Shown here piece by piece: positions 47,027 through 60,626 of a DNA stretch of 64,000 bases. This DNA comes from Pararhodobacter oceanensis (GTDB lineage: Bacteria > Pseudomonadota > Alphaproteobacteria > Rhodobacterales > Rhodobacteraceae). The notes beneath the pieces were generated by a model. That model did no database searches, was not told where the DNA came from, and was given only the letters and a program-made list of their open reading frames with translations. How positions within the stretch are numbered: the first letter of the stretch is position 1; the number at the start of each line of letters is the position of its first letter. The translations under genes were made by a program, and so were the position numbers. The stretch lies in the NCBI RefSeq assembly GCF_003076755.1, contig NZ_QDKM01000004.1, positions 1 through 64,000 of the forward strand, read 5' to 3'.

Positions 47027-47911
47027 TCAGGCAGATTGATGCGCGCCGTAGTACAGGCCGACGACATGTTCGGCCTGTGCGAAAAACAGCCAGCGTGCGG
47101 TGAACATGCCCAGCGTATGGATCACCGTCGCGGCGACCAGCGCGGTGATCGACATCGGTGCGATCCACAGCATGAGCGACGGCACGAGGCAGGCCAGCAC
47201 CAAGGTTAACACCCGCAGCACCAGCGCGTGTTTGCGCCCGACCACATAGACCATCTCGCGCAGCAGATAATTCTGCCCCGTATGCGGTGGCTCGAACTGC
47301 CGCACCGCACCGCGCGCACCCAGTCCGGTGGCGCTGCCGAGCGTCGTGCCGCTTTTGACAAACTGCCGGTCGCCCAGCAGCCAGTTCGCCACCAGTGTCA
47401 GCGCCAGCCACGCCAGCAGCAATTGCGCGGCCATCACCATGCCGGTGAGCAGCGCGCCACCGGTCAGCGCCGCAAGGATAAAGACCGCCGGACCCGACCA
47501 ATGATTCCAACGGGGTATGCTGCGCAGTTGCGCGTAGATCATCGCCGTCGCCAGCACGGTCTGCAGGCAAAGCACGCCGCCGATCACGCCAAATCCGACC
47601 AAAGGCTGGCCGAAGAACACCAGCCCCGCGGCATGCGGCGCGATGAACAAAAGTGCCGCCACTGCCAGCACCGCCTCCCGCGAGAGCCAACTGGTGCGCC
47701 ATTGGCTGAAGGCTTTGAGCGCGCGTTCGGGACGGCCAAGGTGAAAGGCCGAAGCCGCCAACCCGATCAGGATTAACGCATAGCCCAACCCGAACCAGAA
47801 AAACGCCGCCCAGCCGGTCGGCATCGCCACGCCCAGCCCGAGAAAGGCCAAGAGGCCAAGCCCGAGACCCGAGAGCACCGAAAACGCGATGATAGAGGGG
47901 GCGGGATGCAT
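47027..47911 (-). CDS. soeC: sulfite dehydrogenase membrane anchor, SoeC (DmsC/NrfD family)
   Basis: A 294-residue membrane anchor with about eight helices that binds quinone and holds the SoeAB heterodimer on the cytoplasmic face. The DmsC-type start IIAFSVLSGLGLGLLAFLGLG and the later HLGRPERALKAFSQWRTSWLSREA are characteristic. Its ATG shares one base with the TGA of soeB. The other candidate, a DMSO reductase anchor, is less likely because of the SoeA features. Third gene of the operon. Confidence 0.82.
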   Translation of the reverse strand: MHPAPSIIAFSVLSGLGLGLLAFLGLGVAMPTGWAAFFWFGLGYALILIGLAASAFHLGRPERALKAFSQWRTSWLSREAVLAVAALLFIAPHAAGLVFFGQPLVGFGVIGGVLCLQTVLATAMIYAQLRSIPRWNHWSGPAVFILAALTGGALLTGMVMAAQLLLAWLALTLVANWLLGDRQFVKSGTTLGSATGLGARGAVRQFEPPHTGQNYLLREMVYVVGRKHALVLRVLTLVLACLVPSLMLWIAPMSITALVAATVIHTLGMFTARWLFFAQAEHVVGLYYGAHQSA

Positions 47912-48657
47912 CAGAACCTCGACAATGTGCGGTCGATCCAGCCCAGAAAGCCGTCCAGACCGTCGGTGGATGGGTCCGCCGCCATCGCGGGCGCGCCCTT
48001 CGCCGCCAGCGCGTCGCGGTTGCGCGGCGGCAGGTATTTGTTGACCGGTCTGGTGCCTTGCTCGGGCATCAGGTCAAATCCGCCGCGTTCGGCGACCAAT
48101 TGCGAGACCGCGCTGCTCTCATCGCCGAGGTCGCCGAAATGCCGCGCGCCGGCGGGGCATGTGCGCACGCAACTGGGCACGCGGTCTTCCTCGGGCAGGT
48201 TCTCGTTGTAAATCCGGTCCACACAGAGCGTGCATTTCTTCATCACACCCGCCAGCGCATCCATCTCGCGCGCGCCATAAGGACAGGCCCAGGCGCAGAG
48301 CCCGCAGCCGATGCAATCCTGCTCGTTGACCAAGACGATCCCGTCCTCGACGCGCTTGAAACTGGCGCCGGTGGGGCAGACGGTGACACAGGGCGCATCC
48401 TCGCAATGCAGGCAGGATTTGGGGAAATGCACCACCATCGGGGCTGCATCCGCCGGCACCACTTCGTAGCTGTGAATACGGTTAAGAAATGTGCCCTCGG
48501 GGTCGGCGCCGTAAGCATCCGTATCGGAGAGCGGCGCGCCGTAATTCTCGGTGTTCCAGCCTTTGCAGGAGACCACACAGGCGTGGCAGCCGACGCAGGT
48601 ATCAAGGTCGATGACAAGGCCGAGCTTGCGCTCGGTCGATTGTGGCAGGGCGGTCAT
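47911..48657 (-). CDS. soeB: sulfite dehydrogenase iron-sulfur subunit, SoeB
   Basis: A 248-residue ferredoxin-like subunit with four 4Fe-4S motifs: CVGCHACVVSC, CLHCEDAPCVTVC, CIGCGLCAWAC and CTLC...CVRTC. It would pass electrons from SoeA to the membrane anchor. No Tat or Sec signal, consistent with a cytoplasmic complex. ATG 48657 begins the conserved part (STERKLGLVIDLDTCVGC); the longer frame upstream runs through the spacer. Spacer of 71 bp to soeA with a dispersed repeat motif. Confidence 0.85.
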   Translation of the reverse strand: MTALPQSTERKLGLVIDLDTCVGCHACVVSCKGWNTENYGAPLSDTDAYGADPEGTFLNRIHSYEVVPADAAPMVVHFPKSCLHCEDAPCVTVCPTGASFKRVEDGIVLVNEQDCIGCGLCAWACPYGAREMDALAGVMKKCTLCVDRIYNENLPEEDRVPSCVRTCPAGARHFGDLGDESSAVSQLVAERGGFDLMPEQGTRPVNKYLPPRNRDALAAKGAPAMAADPSTDGLDGFLGWIDRTLSRF

Positions 48658-48694
48658 AGGAGGGCCTCGGCGCGGCGAGGATAGCGGGCGAAGA

Positions 48695-48719
48695 GTTGAG
48701 TATTTTTGGCAAGATGAAG
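48695..48719 (-). repeat. dispersed intergenic motif (CATCTTGCCAAAAATAC type)
   Basis: Read on the minus strand, the soeA-soeB spacer contains CATCTTGCCAAAAATAC, similar to 8943-8961 after purF. It lies inside a co-transcribed operon here, so it is not simply a terminator. Confidence 0.45.
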
Positions 48720-48728
48720 CCGCATGAT

Positions 48729-51542
48729 CTATGCCCCCGATCTGTGGGAAGTTTGCAAAGCGACGGTTTCGGGACCGCTGCCCACCGGTGAGGCTTGCGG
48801 CGGATGCGCGGGTTCCGAGGGGCCATGGGCGGGGGCTTTCTCGATGCGCACGCGCAGGTCGAACCACGCCGCCTGACCGGTGACGGGATCGGAGTTGCTC
48901 CAGCGTAACCCATCGCCTTTCTCGGGATGAAGTTCGCTGATCAAATGGTTGAGCAGGAAGCCTTTTTCAGCCTCGGGCGCGTCGTTCTCCAGCGCCCAAG
49001 CGCCGCGTCTTTTGCCGATCGCGTTCCATGTCCAGACGGTGTGATCATTGAGCGCTTCCATCCGCGCGACGGGGAGTTTGATGCGCCCGTTGGGTGAGGT
49101 GAGATAGGCCCAGTCGCCATCGGCAAACCCGTGATCGCGCCAGATCTTGCCCGAGACATAGAGCGGGTTGAGGCCGTGGATTTGTCGCAACCACGCGTTC
49201 TGGCTGCCCCAGGAATGATACATCGCCGCGGGGCGCTGGGTCAGCGCGTGCAGGGGGTATTCTGCCTCATCCTGCTCGTCGGTCAGCGGCGGATACCAGA
49301 TCGGCAGCGGGTCGAGCGTGTCCTTGATCCGCCTGCGTAGATGCTCGGGCGGTTGGCGCTCACCGTAACCTTCGGCGGCGCGCTGGAATTTGCGCAGCGG
49401 CTCGAGATAAAGGTTAAAGATATAGGGCGCGGGCGCGTCATAAATCCCGCGCTCGACCGCCCACTCCTGATAGGCGGCGTTCCACGGTTTGAAGAATTGC
49501 GCCTCTTCGGGGATATGCGCCGAGAAAAACCCGCCGTTGTCGATATAGCGCTGCAATTGCGCAGGATTCGGTGCCCCGCGTCCCGCGCCCGTGCCATCGC
49601 CGCGCCAGCCGGCCAGCGGTCCGACCCCGGGGCGGCGTTGGTGGTTGGTGATATAGTCGGCGTAATCGGCGAATTTTGCGCTGCCGTCCTCATTGACCAT
49701 GCCGGGCAGGCCGAGGCGCGCGCCGAGGTCCAAGAGCACCGACTGAAACCCGCGCACATCCCGGTCGGGCGTGACCACCGGCCAGCGGATCGCGTCATTC
49801 ATACTGTCCGGCTCGCCAATCGGGCGATCTAGCAGGCTGATGCAATCATGGCGCTCAAGATAGGTGGTGTCGGGCAGGATCAGATCGGCGTAGGCCACCA
49901 TTTCCGAGGAATAGGCATCGGAATAGAGGATATTCGGGATCACATAGTCGCCGTTTTCATCCGTGTCGGTGAGCATGCGCATCACCTCGGAGGTGTTCAT
50001 CGTCGAGTTCCACGCCATATTCGCCATATAGAGAAACAGCGTGTCGATCTTATAGGGATCACCGGCATGGGCATTGGAGATCACCATATGCATCATGCCA
50101 TGCGCGGAGAGCGGGTTCTCCCAAGTGAAGGCCTTGTCGATGCGTTTGGCGCTGCCATCATCGTTGATCAGCAGGTCTTCGGGCCCCATCGGATAGCCCA
50201 GATGCGGGCCATCAAGCGGTTTGCCGGGGGTTACGCCGGCGTGGGGTTTGGGATGCGCCTCGGGCGGTTTGGGGTAGGGCGGTTTGAAACGGTAACCGCC
50301 GGGCACCTCGACCGAGCCGAGCAGGATTTGCAGCATATGCAGGGCGCGCGCGGTCTGGAAGCCGTTAGAATGGGCGCTGATCCCGCGCATCGCATGGAAG
50401 CTGACCGGGCGGCCGGTCATGGTCTCATGACGCTGCCCGCGAAAGTCTGTCCATGGCTGGTTTAGGGTGATTTCCTCTTCAAAGGCCACGCGGGCGATCT
50501 CGGCGGCCACCGCGCGGATGGTATCGGCGGGAATGCCGCAGCGCTCGGCGACGGCGTCGGGGGCATAAGAGGGGTCAAGATAGCGCTCGGCCATCAGGCG
50601 CAGCACGGTCTTATGGCCCGCGTGCTCGGCGGCGGGGGCCGGATCGACCCCCTCGGCATCCCACGCCACGGGGGCGCCGCTGCGCCGGTCCAGAACCATT
50701 GGCGTGCCGGTGTCATCGCGCAGGAATAATCCCTTTTCCGGTCCCTCATCGCCGCGCACCAGATAGGCGGCATTGGTGTAGCGGGTCAGATAATCGAGGT
50801 CGATTTTACCAGCGCGAAACAACTCATGCACGATCGCCAGTATCAACAACCCGTCGGTGCCCGGGGTGACGCCGAGCCAATCGTCGGCCACCGCATTATA
50901 GCCGGTGCGCACCGGATTGACCGCGATCACCCGCGCGCCGCGGGCTTTCAGGCGACCGATGCCCATTTTGATCGGGTTGCTGTCATGATCCTCGGCGACG
51001 CCAAACAGCATGAACAGCTTGGTGCGCTCCCAATCAGGCTGGCCGAACTCCCAAAACGCGCCGCCCATGGTATAGATACCGCCCGCCGCCATATTGACGC
51101 TGCAAAACCCGCCGTGGGCGGCGTAATTGGGCGTGCCGTAAGCCTGCGCCCACCAGCCGGTGAGGCTTTGGGATTGATCGCGGCCGGTGAAAAACGCCAG
51201 CTTTTCAGGTGCTTCCTCGCGCAGGGGTTTGAGCCATGAGACCGCTTGCTCCAGCGCCTCTTCCCATGAAATTTCTTCAAATTCCCCCGACCCACGCGGC
51301 CCCACGCGGCGCAACGGCGCCCGCAATCGCGCCGGGCTCAGGTGCTGCATGATCCCCGCCGAGCCCTTGGCGCACAGCACGCCTTTGTTGACCGGATGGT
51401 CGCGGTTGCCCTCGATATAGGCGACCTCGTCGCCCTTCATATGCACGTTGATGCCGCAGCGGCAGGCGCACATATAGCAGGTGGTCTGGCGGATCTCATC
51501 CGAGACCGCAGGCGACAGGTCGGTGGCGGGTTGGCTGGTCAT
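48729..51542 (-). CDS. soeA: sulfite dehydrogenase molybdopterin subunit, SoeA
   Basis: A 937-residue Mo-bisMGD oxidoreductase that oxidises sulfite to sulfate. The 4Fe-4S site at the N-terminus is C22-x2-C25-x3-C29 and C57 (CYMCACRCG...GVLCAKGSAG), followed by IMQHLSPARLRAPL. The absence of a Tat signal is a defining feature of cytoplasmic SoeA, in contrast to periplasmic DmsA or PsrA. Molybdopterin segments GVAEDHDSNPIKMG and VAYADLILPDTTYLERHD are present. With soeB and soeC downstream the complex is complete. ATG 51542 has GGGAGAG upstream. Divergent from clpP across 234 bp. Confidence 0.86.
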   Translation of the reverse strand: MTSQPATDLSPAVSDEIRQTTCYMCACRCGINVHMKGDEVAYIEGNRDHPVNKGVLCAKGSAGIMQHLSPARLRAPLRRVGPRGSGEFEEISWEEALEQAVSWLKPLREEAPEKLAFFTGRDQSQSLTGWWAQAYGTPNYAAHGGFCSVNMAAGGIYTMGGAFWEFGQPDWERTKLFMLFGVAEDHDSNPIKMGIGRLKARGARVIAVNPVRTGYNAVADDWLGVTPGTDGLLILAIVHELFRAGKIDLDYLTRYTNAAYLVRGDEGPEKGLFLRDDTGTPMVLDRRSGAPVAWDAEGVDPAPAAEHAGHKTVLRLMAERYLDPSYAPDAVAERCGIPADTIRAVAAEIARVAFEEEITLNQPWTDFRGQRHETMTGRPVSFHAMRGISAHSNGFQTARALHMLQILLGSVEVPGGYRFKPPYPKPPEAHPKPHAGVTPGKPLDGPHLGYPMGPEDLLINDDGSAKRIDKAFTWENPLSAHGMMHMVISNAHAGDPYKIDTLFLYMANMAWNSTMNTSEVMRMLTDTDENGDYVIPNILYSDAYSSEMVAYADLILPDTTYLERHDCISLLDRPIGEPDSMNDAIRWPVVTPDRDVRGFQSVLLDLGARLGLPGMVNEDGSAKFADYADYITNHQRRPGVGPLAGWRGDGTGAGRGAPNPAQLQRYIDNGGFFSAHIPEEAQFFKPWNAAYQEWAVERGIYDAPAPYIFNLYLEPLRKFQRAAEGYGERQPPEHLRRRIKDTLDPLPIWYPPLTDEQDEAEYPLHALTQRPAAMYHSWGSQNAWLRQIHGLNPLYVSGKIWRDHGFADGDWAYLTSPNGRIKLPVARMEALNDHTVWTWNAIGKRRGAWALENDAPEAEKGFLLNHLISELHPEKGDGLRWSNSDPVTGQAAWFDLRVRIEKAPAHGPSEPAHPPQASPVGSGPETVALQTSHRSGA

Positions 51543-53938: not shown

Positions 53939-55498
53939 CTACCCGAAATCCACCACCCTCGGACGTTCTACCTCAATCAACCGCGGACCTTTGCCGCTGG
54001 CGATCAGCTCCGGCAGTTCCGAATCCGAGCAGATATCGAACCGCAGCCCCGAGGCCTTGGCCAGCGCCTCCATATCCGGCGGTGTCGGCGTGCAGCCCAG
54101 CACCTCGGCGCCCGCATCCAGCATCGATTGCGCGATCTCGCCGTAGCCGTGGTTGTTGAAGACGACGAAAGTGATATCGAGATCCTCGTCGCGCGCGGTG
54201 CGCAATTCGCCGGGATGGAACATCAGCCCGCCATCTCCGGTCAAGCAGATCACCCGCCGGTCGGGCGCGGCAAATGCGGCACCAATGGCGGCACCGGTGG
54301 CGAACCCCAGCGCGCCGTAACCGGTGGCGGCGTTGAACCAACCACCCGGTGCGTCATGGCTGTAATAGAGGTTTCCGGCATAGATAATCTGCGTCGAATC
54401 GCCGACCATGATCGCATTCGGCACCCGATCCCGCAGCGCTTCCAACAGGCGGATATCGGATTGATAGGGCGCGTCCAATTCGGCAAAAGCGGCAGTGCGG
54501 GTCTTTGCCGCACGCGCGGCGCCATCGGCCACAGGTCGCGGCGGCGCCAGTTTCGGCAGGATCGCTGCGACATCCGCCTGTAGGGTCAGCGCCGCGCTAT
54601 GGCGGGCGAGTTGCGCGCCGTCGATATCAATGCGGATCAGGCTTTGATGCGGGATTTCAAAGCTGCCGGTGCCGTAGACATCATAATCCGTCGGGCCCAA
54701 TTCCGACCCCGCCACCAGCACCAGATCGGCGCCGTCAATCAGCGCGCGCACCGGCGGCAGGCTGGCGCTGGCCGGCACCGCCAGCGGGTGGTTATGCATG
54801 AGGCCACGTGCATTGGCGGTCAACACCACCGGCGCGCCCATCGCCTCGGCCAGCGCCTGCAATTCGGCACCGGCTTTGCGGCAGCCGCCACCGGCAAGGA
54901 TCACCGGCGCTTTCGCCATGCGGATACGGCCAAGCGCTTTGGCCGGGTCCGGCAGTGAGGGCGCAGGTGCGGCCAAGGGCACGGTCGCGGGGGCGGGTTT
55001 GTCCATCAGGTCCAAGGGGATTTGCACATGCACCGGCCCGCCGCGCCCCGTGGTCAGGGCACGGCCAGCATGCGAGAGAATACCGGGCAGGGCCTTCGGG
55101 TCCTCGAGATGCAGCGCCGGACCCAGCACCCGCGTCAGCGCGCGCTGGTCGGGCAGCTCATGCAGATGCCCCATGCCGCGGCCCAAAGTCTGCCGCTGGT
55201 TCACGCCCGAGATCACCAGCATCGGGCTGCTGTCGGCGCGGGCCTGTGCCATCGGCGTCAGCATATTGGTCACGCCGGGACCGGTGATCACCAAGGCCAC
55301 GCCAAACCGCCCCGAAGCGCGCGCATAGCCATCGGCCATAAACCCCGCGCCCCCCTCATGGCGTGGTGTCACGTGGTGAATGCCGGAGCCGGGCAGCGCG
55401 CGATAAAGCTCAATCGTATGCACGCCGGGGATCCCGAACACGACCTCCACGCCCATGGATTTCAGCCATTCTACAAGGGTTTGCGCGACGCTCTTCAT
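53939..55498 (-). CDS. aruI: ThDP-dependent decarboxylase, 5-guanidino-2-oxopentanoate type (AruI-like)
   Basis: A 519-residue ThDP enzyme resembling acetolactate synthase large subunits. The cofactor-activating Glu48 lies in PRHEGGAGFMADGYAR and the ThDP/Mg motif is GDGGLMF...NNHGYGE. In the arginine transaminase pathway AruI decarboxylates 5-guanidino-2-oxopentanoate to 4-guanidinobutanal. The aminotransferase gene upstream overlaps it by 4 nt (ATGA), which favours this over an anabolic acetolactate synthase; no small subunit ilvH is nearby. ATG 55498 starts a family-typical N-terminus. The last gene of the four-gene operon. Confidence 0.75.
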   Translation of the reverse strand: MKSVAQTLVEWLKSMGVEVVFGIPGVHTIELYRALPGSGIHHVTPRHEGGAGFMADGYARASGRFGVALVITGPGVTNMLTPMAQARADSSPMLVISGVNQRQTLGRGMGHLHELPDQRALTRVLGPALHLEDPKALPGILSHAGRALTTGRGGPVHVQIPLDLMDKPAPATVPLAAPAPSLPDPAKALGRIRMAKAPVILAGGGCRKAGAELQALAEAMGAPVVLTANARGLMHNHPLAVPASASLPPVRALIDGADLVLVAGSELGPTDYDVYGTGSFEIPHQSLIRIDIDGAQLARHSAALTLQADVAAILPKLAPPRPVADGAARAAKTRTAAFAELDAPYQSDIRLLEALRDRVPNAIMVGDSTQIIYAGNLYYSHDAPGGWFNAATGYGALGFATGAAIGAAFAAPDRRVICLTGDGGLMFHPGELRTARDEDLDITFVVFNNHGYGEIAQSMLDAGAEVLGCTPTPPDMEALAKASGLRFDICSDSELPELIASGKGPRLIEVERPRVVDFG

Positions 55499-56673
55499 GT
55501 GCTCTGTTCTTCGGCAAAGGCGCGGATGCGCGTGCAGGCTTCGATGGTGTCCGCGTCCGAGGCATTGAGCGCCAAGCGCAGCCAGCCCTCAAGCGCTTCA
55601 CCAAAGGATGCTCCGGGCATAACCGCAACATTGGCGGTTTCCAAGAGTTTTAGCGCAAAATCAAGGGAGTCCATGGAAATCGCCCGAATGTCGATCAGCG
55701 CGAACATCCCGGCCTCGGGGAGGGAAACATGCAAATTCGCTTGATTATCAAGCGTGTCGCGGACGATCCTCGCGCGGTTTGCCATCCGTGCCGCCATCTC
55801 GCGGGCCAGTATAGGCGGCTCGGCCACCGCCTGCGCGGTCATATCGGCGATGAAGGGTTGCGAGCCGAAAAGCATGGTTTCCGAGAGTGGCAGGGCGCGT
55901 TCGATGAAATGCGCGGGGCCGGTGATCCAGCCCGAGCGAAACCCCGGCGCGGCGTGGCTTTTCGAGATCGAAGCGGCGGCAATCGTGCGCTCTTCATAGG
56001 CGGGATCGGCCAGCGCCGAGGTAAAGGCGCGGTGGTCATGGGTGAGGTCGCCGTAGACCTCGTCGGAGAGGATCCAGAGGTCGTGTTTCTTCGCCACTTC
56101 GCCGATTGCACTCAGGTCGTCCTGCTGCAGGATCGCGCCGGTCGGATTATGCGGGGTGTTGAGAAAAATCACACGAGTCCGGGGGGTTATCGAGGATTCA
56201 ATATCGCTGGCCTGAATTTTGAACCCGTTCTCGGGGCGCAAGGTCACCGGCACCGGCGTCGCGCCTGAGGAGCGGATCAACCCCTCATAGGTCGCATACA
56301 TCGGATCGCCGATAATCACCTCGGTCCCCGTCTCGCATAGCGTATGCAGCACCAGATAGAGCGCGGTCTGGGTGCCGGGCAAGCACATGAAGCGCTCGGG
56401 GCCAATCGGACGGCCGAGCCGCTCGGTATAGCGTTCCGAGAGCGCCGCCAGCAGCCGCGCTTCGCCCTGTCCGTTGGAATAGCCGGTGCGACCAGCGCGC
56501 ATCGCCTCGCAGGCGGCCTCGATCAGTGCGTCAGGGGTGGCGACATCAGGCTCGCCAATCGTCAGATTGATCACCTTTTCCCCCGCCGCGATGCGTTTTT
56601 GCGCTGCGTTATGGAGCGTCCATTTGTCCGATCCCAGACCCGCCAATTGCTGGGTGACTGCCGCGAATTTCAT
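55495..56673 (-). CDS. aruH: class I/II aminotransferase, arginine:pyruvate transaminase-like (AruH)
   Basis: A 392-residue fold-type I PLP enzyme. The substrate loop is NLTIGEPDVATPDAL, Asn176 is in NTPHNPTG, Asp204 in SDEVYGDL and the PLP lysine is Lys238 in SISKSHAAPGFRSGW. AruH transfers the amino group from arginine to pyruvate. Pairing with the AruI-like gene supports this, but aspartate aminotransferase-type substrates are possible. ATG 56673 has GAGG upstream and follows the regulator's stop by 1 nt. Confidence 0.75.
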   Translation of the reverse strand: MKFAAVTQQLAGLGSDKWTLHNAAQKRIAAGEKVINLTIGEPDVATPDALIEAACEAMRAGRTGYSNGQGEARLLAALSERYTERLGRPIGPERFMCLPGTQTALYLVLHTLCETGTEVIIGDPMYATYEGLIRSSGATPVPVTLRPENGFKIQASDIESSITPRTRVIFLNTPHNPTGAILQQDDLSAIGEVAKKHDLWILSDEVYGDLTHDHRAFTSALADPAYEERTIAAASISKSHAAPGFRSGWITGPAHFIERALPLSETMLFGSQPFIADMTAQAVAEPPILAREMAARMANRARIVRDTLDNQANLHVSLPEAGMFALIDIRAISMDSLDFALKLLETANVAVMPGASFGEALEGWLRLALNASDADTIEACTRIRAFAEEQST

Positions 56674-56674
56674 G

Positions 56675-57301
56675 TTAGACCTCAGGGAGTTCGAGTTTAA
56701 GAAGGCGTGAGAAGGCATTGATAGCGATAGACTTTAACTGATCTGGTGTGAAGGCGTCGGGCAGCGCGCCGGCTTCGATCCATAGCCCGTCCAAAAGCGC
56801 GTTACCGGCAATCGCGAGGGTCTGCGCCTGCTCGACCGGCTGGCCGCTATGCGCCAATGCCTCGGTGATCATCCGCTGCAAGAGGTCGCGAAACTCCAGA
56901 TAGGTTTCGCGGTGCACCGCGCGCATTTTCGCATCCCGCGGCACCAGTTGCATCGAGGCCGCCCAGAGCGCAACCGTGCGCGGATCGGTGACCGGCGGCG
57001 AGACCGCATTGGCCAGAAACACACTCAGCCGCGCCAAGGGATCGTCGGGTAGGTCCTCAAGCCGTTCGGCGCTGGCCTCGGTTAGCCCGCTCATCAGGTG
57101 TTGATGCGCGGCCGCGATCAGGTCCTCTTTGGTGGCGAAGTAATGGCGGATCAGCCCCGGTGTGACCCCCGCCCGCGTCGCAATCGCGCGGACGGTGGCA
57201 GCCTGCGGGCCGCCCTCGGCGATCAGGTCCAGCGTTGCCGCGATCAGATCTGCGCGCCGCGTCTGCGCGCCCGCATGCACAAAGCGGCGCCGCGTGGTCA
57301 T
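56675..57301 (-). CDS. TetR-family transcriptional regulator (BetI-like)
   Basis: A 208-residue TetR regulator. The helix-turn-helix covers about 15-60 (ATVRAIATRAGVTPGLIRHYFATKEDLIAAA). ATG 57301 overlaps the stop of the DDAH-like gene by 4 nt; the gene is thus inside the operon, between the hydrolase and the aminotransferase, and is translationally coupled. Local regulation is likely, and the palindrome at 58204-58227 is the natural candidate operator. The ligand could be arginine or a methylated arginine, by inference from the neighbours. Confidence 0.88.
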   Translation of the reverse strand: MTTRRRFVHAGAQTRRADLIAATLDLIAEGGPQAATVRAIATRAGVTPGLIRHYFATKEDLIAAAHQHLMSGLTEASAERLEDLPDDPLARLSVFLANAVSPPVTDPRTVALWAASMQLVPRDAKMRAVHRETYLEFRDLLQRMITEALAHSGQPVEQAQTLAIAGNALLDGLWIEAGALPDAFTPDQLKSIAINAFSRLLKLELPEV

Positions 57302-58167
57302 GCGCGCAAGACGGGGCGCGTCAGGCAGGTCGGCCCGCCTTCGCACGCGATGCAGAGCGCGTCGCCCTCAAAGACCTGCACGCGGCAGCCATGCGCCTCC
57401 ATCAGCGCGCGGGTGCGCGGGAAGCCATCGACCATCACCACATCCTTGGGCGTGAGCATCAGCACATTCAGGCTCAGCCCGTTCGAGGCGGTGAATTCAT
57501 CCTCGGGCGCGTGCAGCAGGGTCCAGCCGCGCTTGGTTAACTCCTGCCACATAGCATAGGGCAGGAGTGGCGCGTGGATCAGCGCCATCTTCGGGGCCAA
57601 GGGCGAGATCAGCGACATCAGATGCAGGCAGGCCGAAGGGCCGGTCCAATAGGGCAGGTCATAGGCGACCACTTGGATGCCATGCGGGGTCAGGATATCG
57701 CGCAGCGCCTCGATCCCCTGTTGGTTGCTGCGCGCGCCGCGCCCGACCGCTAGCGTCACCGGATCGATCCACACCAGATCACCGGATTCGATCTGCTGAT
57801 CGCCGGTCAACTGCCCGATCACCGGCACGCCGAGCGCCGCGTAGGCGTCGAGATGCAGCGCAGGTTCGGCTTTGCGCAGGGCTTTACCCATGTTCAACAC
57901 CACTGCACCGGCGCGGGTGACGAAAGAGGTGTCCTGCACGAACATCGCATCCGCCAGCCCGTCATCGTCGGAGGGCAGCCAATGGATCTCGGCGCCGGAA
58001 TTGGTAACGATTTCCGCCAGTTCGGCGTGTTGGCGTTGCGCGCGTTCGGGGTTGAACTGCGGCCCATAGTGCCATTCGGTGGGGTCGGCCTTGGCCAGTG
58101 CCGGACCGGGGACGCGCATGATCACGCGCTTGAGGGGATGGGTTCGGTCTTCTGCACCAAAGGTCAT
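57298..58167 (-). CDS. dimethylarginine dimethylaminohydrolase-like amidinohydrolase
   Basis: A 289-residue guanidino-group modifying enzyme. Predicted catalytic residues: His182 in CLHLMSLIS, Cys281 in GGPTCLTRP and Asp79 in FVQDTSF. DDAH converts N-dimethylarginine to citrulline plus dimethylamine; related arginine deiminases act on arginine. Length and the absence of a cap domain favour DDAH over arginine deiminase (about 410 residues). ATG 58167 is preferred; an in-frame ATG further upstream would run through the palindrome. First gene of the operon. Confidence 0.78.
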   Translation of the reverse strand: MTFGAEDRTHPLKRVIMRVPGPALAKADPTEWHYGPQFNPERAQRQHAELAEIVTNSGAEIHWLPSDDDGLADAMFVQDTSFVTRAGAVVLNMGKALRKAEPALHLDAYAALGVPVIGQLTGDQQIESGDLVWIDPVTLAVGRGARSNQQGIEALRDILTPHGIQVVAYDLPYWTGPSACLHLMSLISPLAPKMALIHAPLLPYAMWQELTKRGWTLLHAPEDEFTASNGLSLNVLMLTPKDVVMVDGFPRTRALMEAHGCRVQVFEGDALCIACEGGPTCLTRPVLRA

Positions 58168-58203
58168 ATCGCGCGGTTCCGATCTGGAAAAGTTGCTGTC
58201 CGG

Positions 58204-58227
58204 GTAATTATACATTTGCATAATTAC
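58204..58227. promoter_or_regulatory. 24-bp palindrome, candidate TetR operator
   Basis: GTAATTAT and ATAATTAC are perfect 8-bp arms around ACATTTGC. It lies 37 bp upstream of the hydrolase start and 109 bp before the substrate-binding protein start, in the shared divergent region. A TetR repressor is encoded in the operon. Confidence 0.6.
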
Positions 58228-58336
58228 GCAGATCATGGCCTTCTACAAGCACCAAAAACAGGTGCAATGCTGGCGGTCACTGCTTAGGCTGGTGTCCAAT
58301 CGGCGAGATAATGCGCCGTAACAACAGGAGAGACTG

Positions 58337-59104
58337 ATGAAGAAATTCTTGATGCTGGGCTGCGCGGCGATGGCCTTGACGGTGGGGTCGGCGCAGGCCG
58401 ATGTGGTGCGCGTGGGCATCGCCGCCGAGCCCTATCCGCCCTTCACTGCGCCGGATTCGGCGGGCAATTGGGTTGGCTGGGAGGTCGAGATCATCGACGC
58501 GGTCTGCGCCGCCGCCGAGTTGGAATGCGAGTTGACCCCGACCGCATGGGACGGGATCATTCCGGCGCTGCTATCGGGGCGGATCGATACGATCATGGCT
58601 TCGATGTCGATCACCGAAGACCGGCTGCAAACCATTGATTTCTCGGACCCTTATTACAACACCCCGACGGTGATTGTGGGCCAGCGCGACATGGAAATGG
58701 ACGCTACGCCCGAGGGTCTGTCCGGTATGGTGATCGGGGTGCAGGTCTCGACGATCCACCAGACCTATGCGCAGACCTATTTCGAAGAGGGCAGCGAGTT
58801 GCGCACCTATCAGACGCAGGATGAGGCCAATCAGGATCTGGCCTCGGGGCGGATCGACGCGACGCAGGCCGATAGTCTGGCGCTTGATGATTTCCTCGGC
58901 ACCGAAGCGGGCGCCTGCTGCGAGATCAAGGGCACCGTGGCGATGGACGAATCGATCCTTGGCTCGGGTGTCGGCGCCGGTGTGCGCAAGGGTGACGACG
59001 AGTTGCGCGAGGCGCTGAACGCCGGGATCGCCGCGATCCTGGCCGATGGCACCTATGACGAGATCACCGCGCGCTATTTCGCGACCTCGATCTACGGCCA
59101 GTAG
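58337..59104 (+). CDS. polar amino-acid ABC transporter substrate-binding protein
   Basis: A 255-residue periplasmic binding protein of the lysine/arginine/ornithine/histidine cluster. Signal peptide at 1-21, cleaved before DVVRVG. Family hallmarks are the start VRVGIAAEPYPPFTAPD, GWEVEIIDAVC, PTAWDGIIPALLSGRIDTIMASMSIT and FSDPYYNTPTVIVG. The ATG has AGGAGAGA upstream. With two permeases downstream it forms an uptake system. Divergence from the DDAH/AruHI operon suggests arginine or methylated arginine as cargo; this is inference. Confidence 0.9.
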   Translation: MKKFLMLGCAAMALTVGSAQADVVRVGIAAEPYPPFTAPDSAGNWVGWEVEIIDAVCAAAELECELTPTAWDGIIPALLSGRIDTIMASMSITEDRLQTIDFSDPYYNTPTVIVGQRDMEMDATPEGLSGMVIGVQVSTIHQTYAQTYFEEGSELRTYQTQDEANQDLASGRIDATQADSLALDDFLGTEAGACCEIKGTVAMDESILGSGVGAGVRKGDDELREALNAGIAAILADGTYDEITARYFATSIYGQ

Positions 59105-59106
59105 GT

Positions 59107-59856
59107 TTGCTCGACTGGCTATTCCAGACCTGGCCGGGGCTCGAAGCCTCGGCCGCATTATTGTCGCTCGAGCCTCCGGGGTGGGGCGGCAATCTTTTGC
59201 GCGGGGCGCTGAATTCGGTGATTATCGCACTGGGGGCATTCACCCTTGGCTGTGTGATCGGGATATTCGGCGCTCTGGGCAAGCTCAGCGGCGGGCCGGT
59301 GACGCGCGATCTGCTGTCGATCTATACCACCGTGGTGCGGGCGGTGCCGGAACTGGTGCTGATCCTGCTATTGTATTACGCGGGCACCGATCTGTTGAAC
59401 CAGTTTCTGCGCCTGCTGGGTTACCGGCCGATCGAGATTTCGGGGCTGGCGGCGGGGATCGGCGTGTTGGGCATCGTGCAAGGCGCCTATGCCACCGAAG
59501 TGCTGCGCGGGGCGATCCAATCGGTGCAGCGCGGCCAGACCGAGGCGGCGCGGGCTTTTGGGATGACCCCGTTCCAGACCTTCCGCCGGATCACCTTTCC
59601 CGCAATGCTGCCTTTGGCGCTGCCGGGCCTGTCGAACCTCTGGCTGATTGCCACCAAGGACACCGCTTTATTGGCAATTGTCGGGTTCTCAGAACTGACC
59701 CTAGAGACACGGCAGGCGGCTGGCTCGACACGGGCCTATTTCACATTTTTCCTCGCTGCTGGCGCGCTTTACCTGATCATGACATTGGTCTCGGGGCGGA
59801 TATTTGGCTGGATTGAAGCGCGCTACCGGCGCGGGCAGGCGGGGGCGCGCGCATGA
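59107..59856 (+). CDS. amino-acid ABC transporter permease (HisQ/ArtQ-like)
   Basis: A 249-residue inner-membrane permease with about five helices. The EAA loop is EVLRGAIQSVQRGQTEAARAFGMTPFQTF, the ATPase-contact motif of polar amino-acid importers. The start appears to be TTG at 59107, 2 nt after the binding-protein stop; TAGG lies close by and no ATG fits before the first helix. Overlaps the next permease gene by 4 nt, so the two are coupled. Confidence 0.88.
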   Translation: MLDWLFQTWPGLEASAALLSLEPPGWGGNLLRGALNSVIIALGAFTLGCVIGIFGALGKLSGGPVTRDLLSIYTTVVRAVPELVLILLLYYAGTDLLNQFLRLLGYRPIEISGLAAGIGVLGIVQGAYATEVLRGAIQSVQRGQTEAARAFGMTPFQTFRRITFPAMLPLALPGLSNLWLIATKDTALLAIVGFSELTLETRQAAGSTRAYFTFFLAAGALYLIMTLVSGRIFGWIEARYRRGQAGARA

Positions 59857-60626
59857 TCCGCGATTGGGTCTCGCCACACCGCATCGGGCTGCTGCTGGTG
59901 GCACTGGGCGTGGTGATCTGGGCCGCGGTCAGCATGCGTTGGGACTGGATCCCGCGTTACGCCGGTCTCGGGCTTGAGGGCATCTGGCGCACGCTTTGGC
60001 TGCTGGCGCTGTCCCTGTTGATCGGCGGCGCGCTGGCGGTGCCTTTGGGGCTGGCGCAGGCGGCGGGGCCGGCGTTTCTGGCGCTGCCCGCGCGCTGGTT
60101 TTGCACGGTGATCCGTGGCACGCCGCTACTCTTGCAACTCTGGCTGATCTATTTCGGCCTCGGCAGCCTGTTCCCGCAATTCCCCTCCATCCGGCAATCC
60201 GAGCTTTGGCCCTATCTGCGCCAGGCCTGGCCCTATGCGCTGCTGGCGTTGAGCCTGAGCTATGCGGGCTATGAGGGCGAGGTGATGCGCGGCGCGTTCA
60301 AATCGGTGCCGCAGGGGCAGTTGGAGGCGGGGCGAGCATTCGGGCTCAGCCGTTTCGCCGTGCTGCGCCGGATCTGGCTGCCGCAGGCGCTGGCGCGGGC
60401 GCTGCCGACGCTGGGCGGTGAGGCGATTTTGCAGCTGAAAGCGACACCGCTGGTCGCCACGATCACGGTTATCGAGATCTACGCGGTGGCCAGTCGGGTG
60501 CGGCAGGATACGTTTATCATTTACGAGCCGCTGTTACTTTTGGCGCTGATTTATATGGCGATTGCGGGGGTGATCGCGCTGGGGTTTCGCTGGCTGGAGC
60601 GGCGGTTTACCCGCGGGTTGGGGTAG
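59853..60626 (+). CDS. amino-acid ABC transporter permease (HisM/ArtM-like)
   Basis: A 257-residue second permease with about five helices. The EAA loop is EVMRGAFKSVPQGQLEAGRAFGLSRFAVL, and RGTPLLLQLWLIYFGLG is the typical upstream segment. ATG 59853 overlaps the stop of the first permease (ATGA). No ATP-binding subunit follows: downstream come a hairpin, the second 59-bp repeat and edd on the other strand. The transporter would have to borrow an ATPase encoded elsewhere. Confidence 0.88.
   Translation: MIRDWVSPHRIGLLLVALGVVIWAAVSMRWDWIPRYAGLGLEGIWRTLWLLALSLLIGGALAVPLGLAQAAGPAFLALPARWFCTVIRGTPLLLQLWLIYFGLGSLFPQFPSIRQSELWPYLRQAWPYALLALSLSYAGYEGEVMRGAFKSVPQGQLEAGRAFGLSRFAVLRRIWLPQALARALPTLGGEAILQLKATPLVATITVIEIYAVASRVRQDTFIIYEPLLLLALIYMAIAGVIALGFRWLERRFTRGLG

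Follow-up and report, generated by a model that had tools for sequence, protein, structure and literature searches.

Which substrates are handled by a group of bacterial genes that couples a hydrolase resembling dimethylarginine dimethylaminohydrolase (DDAH) to an aminotransferase, a thiamine diphosphate (ThDP)-dependent decarboxylase and a divergently encoded importer? The question is raised by positions 53,939 to 60,626 of a 64,000-nucleotide stretch of DNA from Pararhodobacter oceanensis (contig NZ_QDKM01000004.1), the whole of which is called the window here. As judged from sequence comparisons, we consider it probable that the locus is a TetR-controlled unit for the uptake and breakdown of arginine and methylarginines, the Pararhodobacter form of which carries a distant relative in the place of DDAH. 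The regulon appears to be present in many Rhodobacteraceae; in its Pararhodobacter form canonical DDAH seems to be absent and a distant relative would head the operon behind the same palindrome. The locus is real, conserved and more widespread than a first-pass annotation of the window had supposed; it is composed of known enzyme families, and the regulon is undescribed in the literature that we searched. Its interest lies in the apparent displacement of DDAH and in the putative shared operator, not in a new kind of enzyme.

All seven open reading frames named in the first-pass annotation were found at their positions, and the junctions of 4, 1 and 4 nucleotides claimed for them were reproduced on recomputed coordinates. 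The genes form two divergent arms. On the minus strand, the DDAH-like gene (57298-58167) overlaps by 4 nucleotides with the gene for a TetR/BetI-type regulator (56675-57301), whose ATG at 57301 lies within the overlap; a gap of 1 nucleotide separates the latter from the aminotransferase gene (55495-56673), which in turn overlaps by 4 nucleotides with the ThDP gene (53939-55498). The plus strand encodes a periplasmic binding protein (58337-59104) and two ABC permeases (59107-59856 and 59853-60626). Between the arms lies the palindrome TAATTATACATTTGCATAATTA (58205-58226), the presumed TetR operator common to both, identified by pattern and matrix match. Gene starts were refined from homologues and junctions, and ATG codons were checked. 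The longest reading frame of the DDAH-like gene begins at 58236, upstream of the palindrome; since the extension would cross 58205-58226, this start is probably wrong and the true one is the ATG at 58167. Automatic start calls for this gene may be off in relatives, too.

An orthologue that is at least 60% identical occurs in 12 of the 18 genomes of the genus, and the gene order proved to be conserved when the neighborhoods were compared: the seven genes follow each other in the same order in 11 of the 12 loci, the window included (the contig of G408 ends within the ThDP gene, and the TetR gene of G409 aligns in two pieces). In the twelfth, from genome G402, the TetR-aminotransferase pair stands alone between edd-like and clpX-like genes, and the genes for hydrolase, importer and an ATPase are located within that contig at a distance of about 226 kb. 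No canonical DDAH was detected in the 18 genus genomes, in which the matches, 27-32% identical, were DDAH-like proteins or belonged to a third family. Twelve of these genomes reach a completeness of 90% or more and do not exceed 5% contamination; in the remaining six the absence of a gene weighs less because they do not combine both values.

The gene combination, for which the first-pass annotation knew of no described precedent, is not exclusive to this locus: it recurs with canonical DDAH in other Rhodobacteraceae. Our survey covered 394 family genomes from 393 genera; ThDP proteins were counted only over the cut-off of NCBIfam NF005712, and canonical DDAH was counted by matches to the protein of locus L089 at E <=1e-20. 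The former were present in 129 genomes and the latter in 85 (both in 63, ThDP only in 66, DDAH only in 22, neither in 243), such that canonical DDAH was found in 63 of the 129 ThDP-family genomes versus 22 of the 265 others. A ThDP threshold of 617 bits, the score of the window protein itself, was tried post hoc and is not used for any claim. Adjacency was judged by eye from coordinates, the genome lists behind the co-occurrence counts were transcribed by hand, and gene calling relied on a GC3/length heuristic that missed some genes (DDAH is unmarked in L123 and L126). The ThDP gene and canonical DDAH are immediate neighbors in 11 of the 85 DDAH genomes; in a twelfth (G115, contig C18, 35717-37567) the ThDP gene is followed by a short DDAH fragment with 76 matched residues, and the cluster appears to have decayed there. 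Eight of the 11 adjacent loci have the order TetR-aminotransferase-ThDP-DDAH opposite ATPase-binding protein-two permeases. TetR, aminotransferase, ThDP and DDAH genes are present and the importer is absent in L095; L099 has ThDP-DDAH and the importer without TetR, aminotransferase and ATPase, and L098 has ThDP-DDAH only, together with a different transporter. Full clusters are found in Ruegeria pomeroyi DSS-3 (SPO_RS20095-20130), Phaeobacter inhibens DSM 17395 (PGA1_RS19255-19290) and Sulfitobacter sp. W027, where a cluster gene carries the annotation dimethylarginine dimethylaminohydrolase. The R. pomeroyi and P. inhibens clusters share importer, TetR, transaminase, decarboxylase and palindrome with the window but differ from it in that an ATPase is present and that a canonical DDAH of another clade is encoded last and not first. 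The canonical DDAHs of the 11 adjacent loci are 25-29% identical to the window hydrolase; the one from L089 reaches 186 bits against the solved Pseudomonas aeruginosa enzyme.

By reading, the palindrome TAATTATGCAAGYGTATAATTA is common to the divergent intergenic regions of both kinds of cluster. Positions 58205-58226 are the sole match in the window to the pattern TAATTATRCNNNNGYATAATTA, itself drawn from these palindrome sites, when up to three mismatches are allowed; the site has no mismatch, and chance would yield 0.02 matches. A scoring matrix was built only from 11 sites beside canonical-DDAH clusters, which are partly dependent (L093/L174 and L096/L173 are near-identical pairs); in addition, L054 and L154 represent a single contig. 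It gave 41.1 for the window palindrome, 37.0-40.9 for other Pararhodobacter clusters, 32.1 and 34.0 for the two modules of G402 and 36.4 for an importer-DDAH site in G282, as compared to maxima of 19.2 in 24 control loci (315 kb, most of them GC-rich) and 14.8 in ten shuffles of the window, all single-base. The palindrome stands ahead of both separated modules of G402; there and in G282, whose TetR gene resides on another contig, it also precedes a module at a distance from the regulator. The 16-base core occurs at zero or one mismatch once each in 18 of 21 genomes, always at the cluster; these genomes were hand-picked for holding such clusters and site positions were mapped by hand. The cluster sites of G402 and G295 have two mismatches, and the only site in G244 is located away from its cluster. 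We infer that the palindrome is the operator bound by the TetR protein, and its TATAAT-like half suggests that it overlaps a promoter. The regulator itself (PF00440 and PF13977) does not pass the cut-offs of the BetI choline repressor models (91.3 vs. 118 and 89.8 vs. 201.3).

The enzyme at the head of the operon is a member of the DDAH/arginine deiminase superfamily. The likeness to DDAH noted in the first-pass annotation is supported insofar as its nearest solved relatives are DDAHs. The P. aeruginosa enzyme (1h70, 3rhy) is the best by profile (E 3.8e-21; best arginine deiminase 9.3e-12), the two being 20-22% identical in the structural match, and all eight compared residues, aligned with D60, F63, D66, R85, E114, R132, H162 and C249 of the P. 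aeruginosa protein, are kept; we take these to be the catalytic Cys/His/Glu and the Asp/Arg contacts. The protein is, however, not a canonical DDAH and stays below the cut-offs of three NCBIfam DDAH models. In a tree, the output of which flags long branches, the hydrolases of Pararhodobacter, Shinella sp. PSBB067 and Rhizobium sp. AB2/73 form one divergent clade (98/89), whereas P. aeruginosa DDAH falls into the canonical set (100/99), and the gene differs from its P. aeruginosa counterpart in being coupled to transaminase and decarboxylase genes. The AlphaFold model, calculated from seven sequences, is of low confidence (mean pLDDT 57.7, pTM 0.63); therefore, its matches in the PDB, with 1h70 on top, confirm the superfamily only. 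Since the genus shows no canonical DDAH, we favor a DDAH-type activity for the window hydrolase. Arginine deiminase was rejected as an assignment (ADI family scores of 46.6 vs. 414 and 39.0 vs. 489.1), and annotating such proteins merely as 'arginine deiminase family' is inadvisable. Two DDAH-superfamily clades in one place of a regulon offer a clear case for studying how the specificity of guanidino enzymes changes.

Members of a sister clade of the hydrolase were seen in six genomes of the family (L038-L043) and in one from the class-wide set (L188), in each case next to the gene for an isochorismatase-fold protein. The sister gene lies directly downstream of that for the 206-residue isochorismatase-fold hydrolase (e.g., L042:9199-10691 and L188:8308-9814; the partner is cut in L039), and in L043 the pair is also preceded by genes for an arginase and an Lrp-like protein. 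The partner is weakly similar to biuret and pyrimidine-utilization (RutB) hydrolases, always under cut-off, and the two proteins possibly form a guanidino-to-ureido-to-amine pair. A class-wide draw of 385 genomes contained relatives of the window hydrolase (E <=1e-40) in 12, counting the genome of the window itself. Among the 11 other loci, one is beside an isochorismatase-fold gene, one is beside an arginase and a lysine/arginine/ornithine (LAO)-type importer, and none has the layout of the window.

The claim that the ThDP-dependent decarboxylase is of the AruI type is supported: the protein contains the Pfam TPP_enzyme N, M and C domains, scores 616.7 bits with NF005712 (5-guanidino-2-oxopentanoate decarboxylase subfamily, cut-off 500) and may act on 5-guanidino-2-oxopentanoate. 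A branched-chain or acetolactate synthase role was dismissed, as those models are far under cut-off. The identification of the aminotransferase as AruH could not be sustained. This class I/II pyridoxal 5'-phosphate (PLP) enzyme (PF00155) has 92 NCBIfam hits, the top 25 of which include no family over its cut-off and none named AruH; the best is GntC (257.5 vs. 415). Its gene is conserved ahead of the ThDP gene, and its substrates are presumed to be of the arginine class. Adjacent genes for a PLP transaminase and a ThDP decarboxylase, as in the window, are also those of P. aeruginosa AruH/AruI and Sinorhizobium meliloti AspC/IlvB1, a likeness by description and not by sequence. According to PMC7268258, AspC uses pyruvate to transaminate arginine, agmatine, ornithine and putrescine, and the neighboring gene encodes the AruI-like decarboxylase IlvB1. 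Unlike these pairs, that of Pararhodobacter stands beside importer, TetR and DDAH-like genes. Passages of two further articles place amino-acid transporter genes at the neighboring S. meliloti locus tags SMc02257-02260 (PMC2848018, PMC3596328), hinting, by analogy, that the aspC/ilvB1 locus may have the same layout with a transporter.

The importer is closest to LAO and histidine systems, with all parts under the cut-offs of those families. The LAO/HisJ/ArtJ-like binding protein (PF00497), which has HisJ and LAO proteins as solved relatives, reaches 217.8 bits with TIGR01096 (cut-off 256.35); the HisQ/ArtQ-like first permease reaches 181.3 bits with PRK15135 (319) and the HisM/ArtM-like second permease 152.6 bits with PRK15069 (306), the TIGR01726 domain being over cut-off in both. 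Binding proteins of full canonical-DDAH clusters are 64-71% identical to that of the window. No ATPase of the importer's type (at least 50% identity) is encoded in 11 of the 12 genus loci, the window included, a gap that the first-pass annotation had not remarked on; it is present in G402, in the Shinella and Rhizobium loci and in all other compared loci with the importer except L099. The genome of P. oceanensis encodes HisP-like ATPases, under cut-off and 59-60% identical to the missing one, among which the partner of the importer would presumably be sought. In 20 further DDAH loci, hand-picked from 74 that do not adjoin a ThDP gene, the importer stands beside DDAH without the ThDP gene in five, either with DDAH alone (L113, L114, L128 and L131) or with TetR-aminotransferase-DDAH (L115). 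This association ties the importer to the substrate of DDAH. A second, unrelated transporter, consisting of a binding protein and a fused permease of about 563 residues, was seen in L129:6136-10867, L098:4082-10390, L041:9386-14498 and L108:7468-12929, next to canonical DDAH, ThDP-DDAH, the sister DDAH-like gene or ThDP-aminotransferase. In L129, L098 and L041 a gene for an FAD oxidase-like protein adjoins it and could replace the transaminase; the protein from L129 is weakly similar, far under cut-off, to L-pipecolate oxidase.

The arginine-class theme of the first-pass annotation is supported, given a ThDP protein over the NF005712 cut-off, an LAO/His/Arg-like transporter, DDAH-type relatives of the hydrolase and a conserved gene order. 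Since importer, TetR and usually aminotransferase and decarboxylase surround either DDAH, the substrate class is most likely arginine and its N-methyl forms. Methylarginines arise from the turnover of methylated proteins. We envisage that the importer would take up a cationic amino acid, energized by an ATPase encoded elsewhere in the genome, and that the hydrolase would split the alkylated guanidino group, releasing citrulline and dimethylamine or methylamine from asymmetric dimethyl- or monomethylarginine. In parallel, aminotransferase and ThDP enzyme would take substrates that the hydrolase refuses (arginine, perhaps symmetric dimethylarginine) and convert them via 2-oxo acids to 4-guanidinobutanal-type aldehydes, to be completed by enzymes encoded elsewhere. 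All substrates, products and binding events assigned to the locus are predictions from homology and gene context. Enzymes that could finish either branch are encoded in the genome of P. oceanensis: an arginase, an ornithine cyclodeaminase and one agmatinase-like protein score over cut-off, and a second agmatinase-like protein scores below it. The first-pass annotation had suggested two exits for one substrate class or a route through dimethylguanidino keto acids; two exits fit better than a single obligatory line, since either half is also found on its own.

Several observations weigh against this scheme. The hydrolase scores 83.5 with NF045660 (cut-off 340), 54.0 with NF045658 (450) and 21.9 with NF045659 (300), although these cut-offs are narrow, since a canonical DDAH from the Rhodobacteraceae likewise fails (216.1 vs. 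450). It also carries Q, M, T and W at the positions aligned with E65, K164, S248 and H22, respectively. All six family genomes with the sister clade already hold a canonical-type DDAH match (E <=1e-20; 41-68% identity, lowest in G090 and G033), so that this branch probably has another substrate, which the window hydrolase might share. The co-occurrence of ThDP and DDAH proteins in the 394 genomes (odds ratio 10.5, Fisher p 4.6e-19) is uncorrected for kinship. The palindrome is missing from L098, L099, L113 and L131 (best scores 1.6-5.6), and L106 reaches 19.7, no better than the controls. The AT-rich L108 scores 25.4 inside a permease gene and has six further hits above 12, so that matrix scores mean less in AT-rich loci. 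When the pattern was read backwards as a control and two mismatches were allowed, the individual genomes had 0-5 matches, that of P. oceanensis four. PF11927, which we take to be a marker of dimethylamine oxidation, has no match in that genome and is present in 13 of the 18 genus genomes; released dimethylamine may therefore go unused. Lastly, IlvB1 of S. meliloti is stated to decarboxylate 5-amino-2-oxopentanoate sevenfold better (passages of PMC7268258).

The preference of IlvB1 for a substrate without a guanidino group would suit a linear pathway, in which the hydrolase forms citrulline, and aminotransferase and ThDP enzyme lead on via 2-oxo-5-ureidopentanoate and 4-ureidobutanal to 4-aminobutyrate (GABA), with one substrate and one path. 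The coupling of both halves in one operon, whether DDAH comes first or last, speaks for it, and the weakly biuret/RutB-like isochorismatase-fold partner of the sister clade (below cut-off) would suit ureido products. Nevertheless, we regard this pathway as unlikely: 66 of the 129 ThDP-family genomes are without canonical DDAH and 22 of the 85 DDAH genomes are without a ThDP protein over cut-off, and P. oceanensis holds arginase and ornithine cyclodeaminase. It is equally improbable that two distantly related enzymes fill the DDAH step under one operator and feed an uncharacterized linear route via these ureido intermediates; if true, such a regulon would connect methylarginine originating from proteins with the release of methylamine by marine bacteria.

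The distance of the hydrolase from the DDAH cut-offs would also be compatible with a specialized deiminase for another guanidino substrate, such as canavanine, homoarginine, hydroxyarginine or an algal arginine derivative, and GntC, the best family of the aminotransferase, albeit under cut-off, is a PLP enzyme for gamma-hydroxyarginine. We give this idea little credence, as elsewhere a DDAH with 186 bits to the P. aeruginosa enzyme sits in the same regulon, behind the same palindrome and with a binding protein 64-71% identical. Least convincing, and in our view very improbable, is a plain arginine transaminase operon with the DDAH-like gene as a passenger in an unrelated or minor role. Transaminase/decarboxylase operons without DDAH do exist (L104, L106), but this reading is opposed by translational coupling, by a gene order common to 11 of the 12 genus loci, by a second type of DDAH in the same operon elsewhere and by the palindrome in front of importer and DDAH alone in G282 and G402. 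An arginine/methylarginine unit with two exits thus remains our preferred interpretation.

Two loci outside the Rhodobacteraceae combine the gene order of the window with the ATPase: that of Shinella sp. PSBB067 (NZ_CP069303) is complete, and that of Rhizobium sp. AB2/73 (NZ_CP067074) has no ThDP gene. Both loci resemble that of the window in having a hydrolase of the same clade at the operon head and the same divergent importer, and differ from it by the ATPase and by lower palindrome scores (28.6 and 28.7). A tree of the binding proteins groups Pararhodobacter with 16 of 17 other Rhodobacteraceae entries (98/97) and separates it from the two Rhizobiaceae; L128 falls outside this group. The transaminase tree places the two Rhizobiaceae with L104 and L108 (100/99) and not with Pararhodobacter. 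These two trees disfavor a transfer of the entire cluster from Rhizobiaceae; the hydrolase tree does join the three lineages (98/89). The hydrolase may have moved into the cluster or may be its older form.

In the open-access literature, with most subscription journals outside coverage, we found no description of DDAH together with an AruHI-type pair and little on methylarginine use by marine and soil bacteria. Published passages on P. inhibens concern a pipecolate oxidase gene and those of PMC4334477 another gene of R. pomeroyi, not this cluster. The shared palindrome and the importer mark loci, including some in mutable model strains, in which methylarginine use can be tested.

By eye, the seven-gene block is flanked by clpP/clpX on one side and an Edd-like gene on the other. 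The clpX flank is conserved in relatives with enough sequence; the opposite flank is variable. Genes labeled by eye as encoding a large molybdopterin oxidoreductase (48729-51542 and 47027-48867), with ferredoxin-like and membrane-like neighbors, adjoin clpP, and this region is also near the locus in several relatives. A third branch of the DDAH superfamily, with AYGGxGW near the N-terminus, is represented in L045, L046, L047, L164:6306-7256 and L165:5856-6899; in three aligned members N replaces D60, and neighbors are an agmatinase-like gene (L164) and binding-protein genes (L046, L047). A DDAH-like gene product with 41% identity is encoded in a non-proteobacterial metagenome-assembled genome, Candidatus Aminicenantes UBA6228 (L058:9989-10870).

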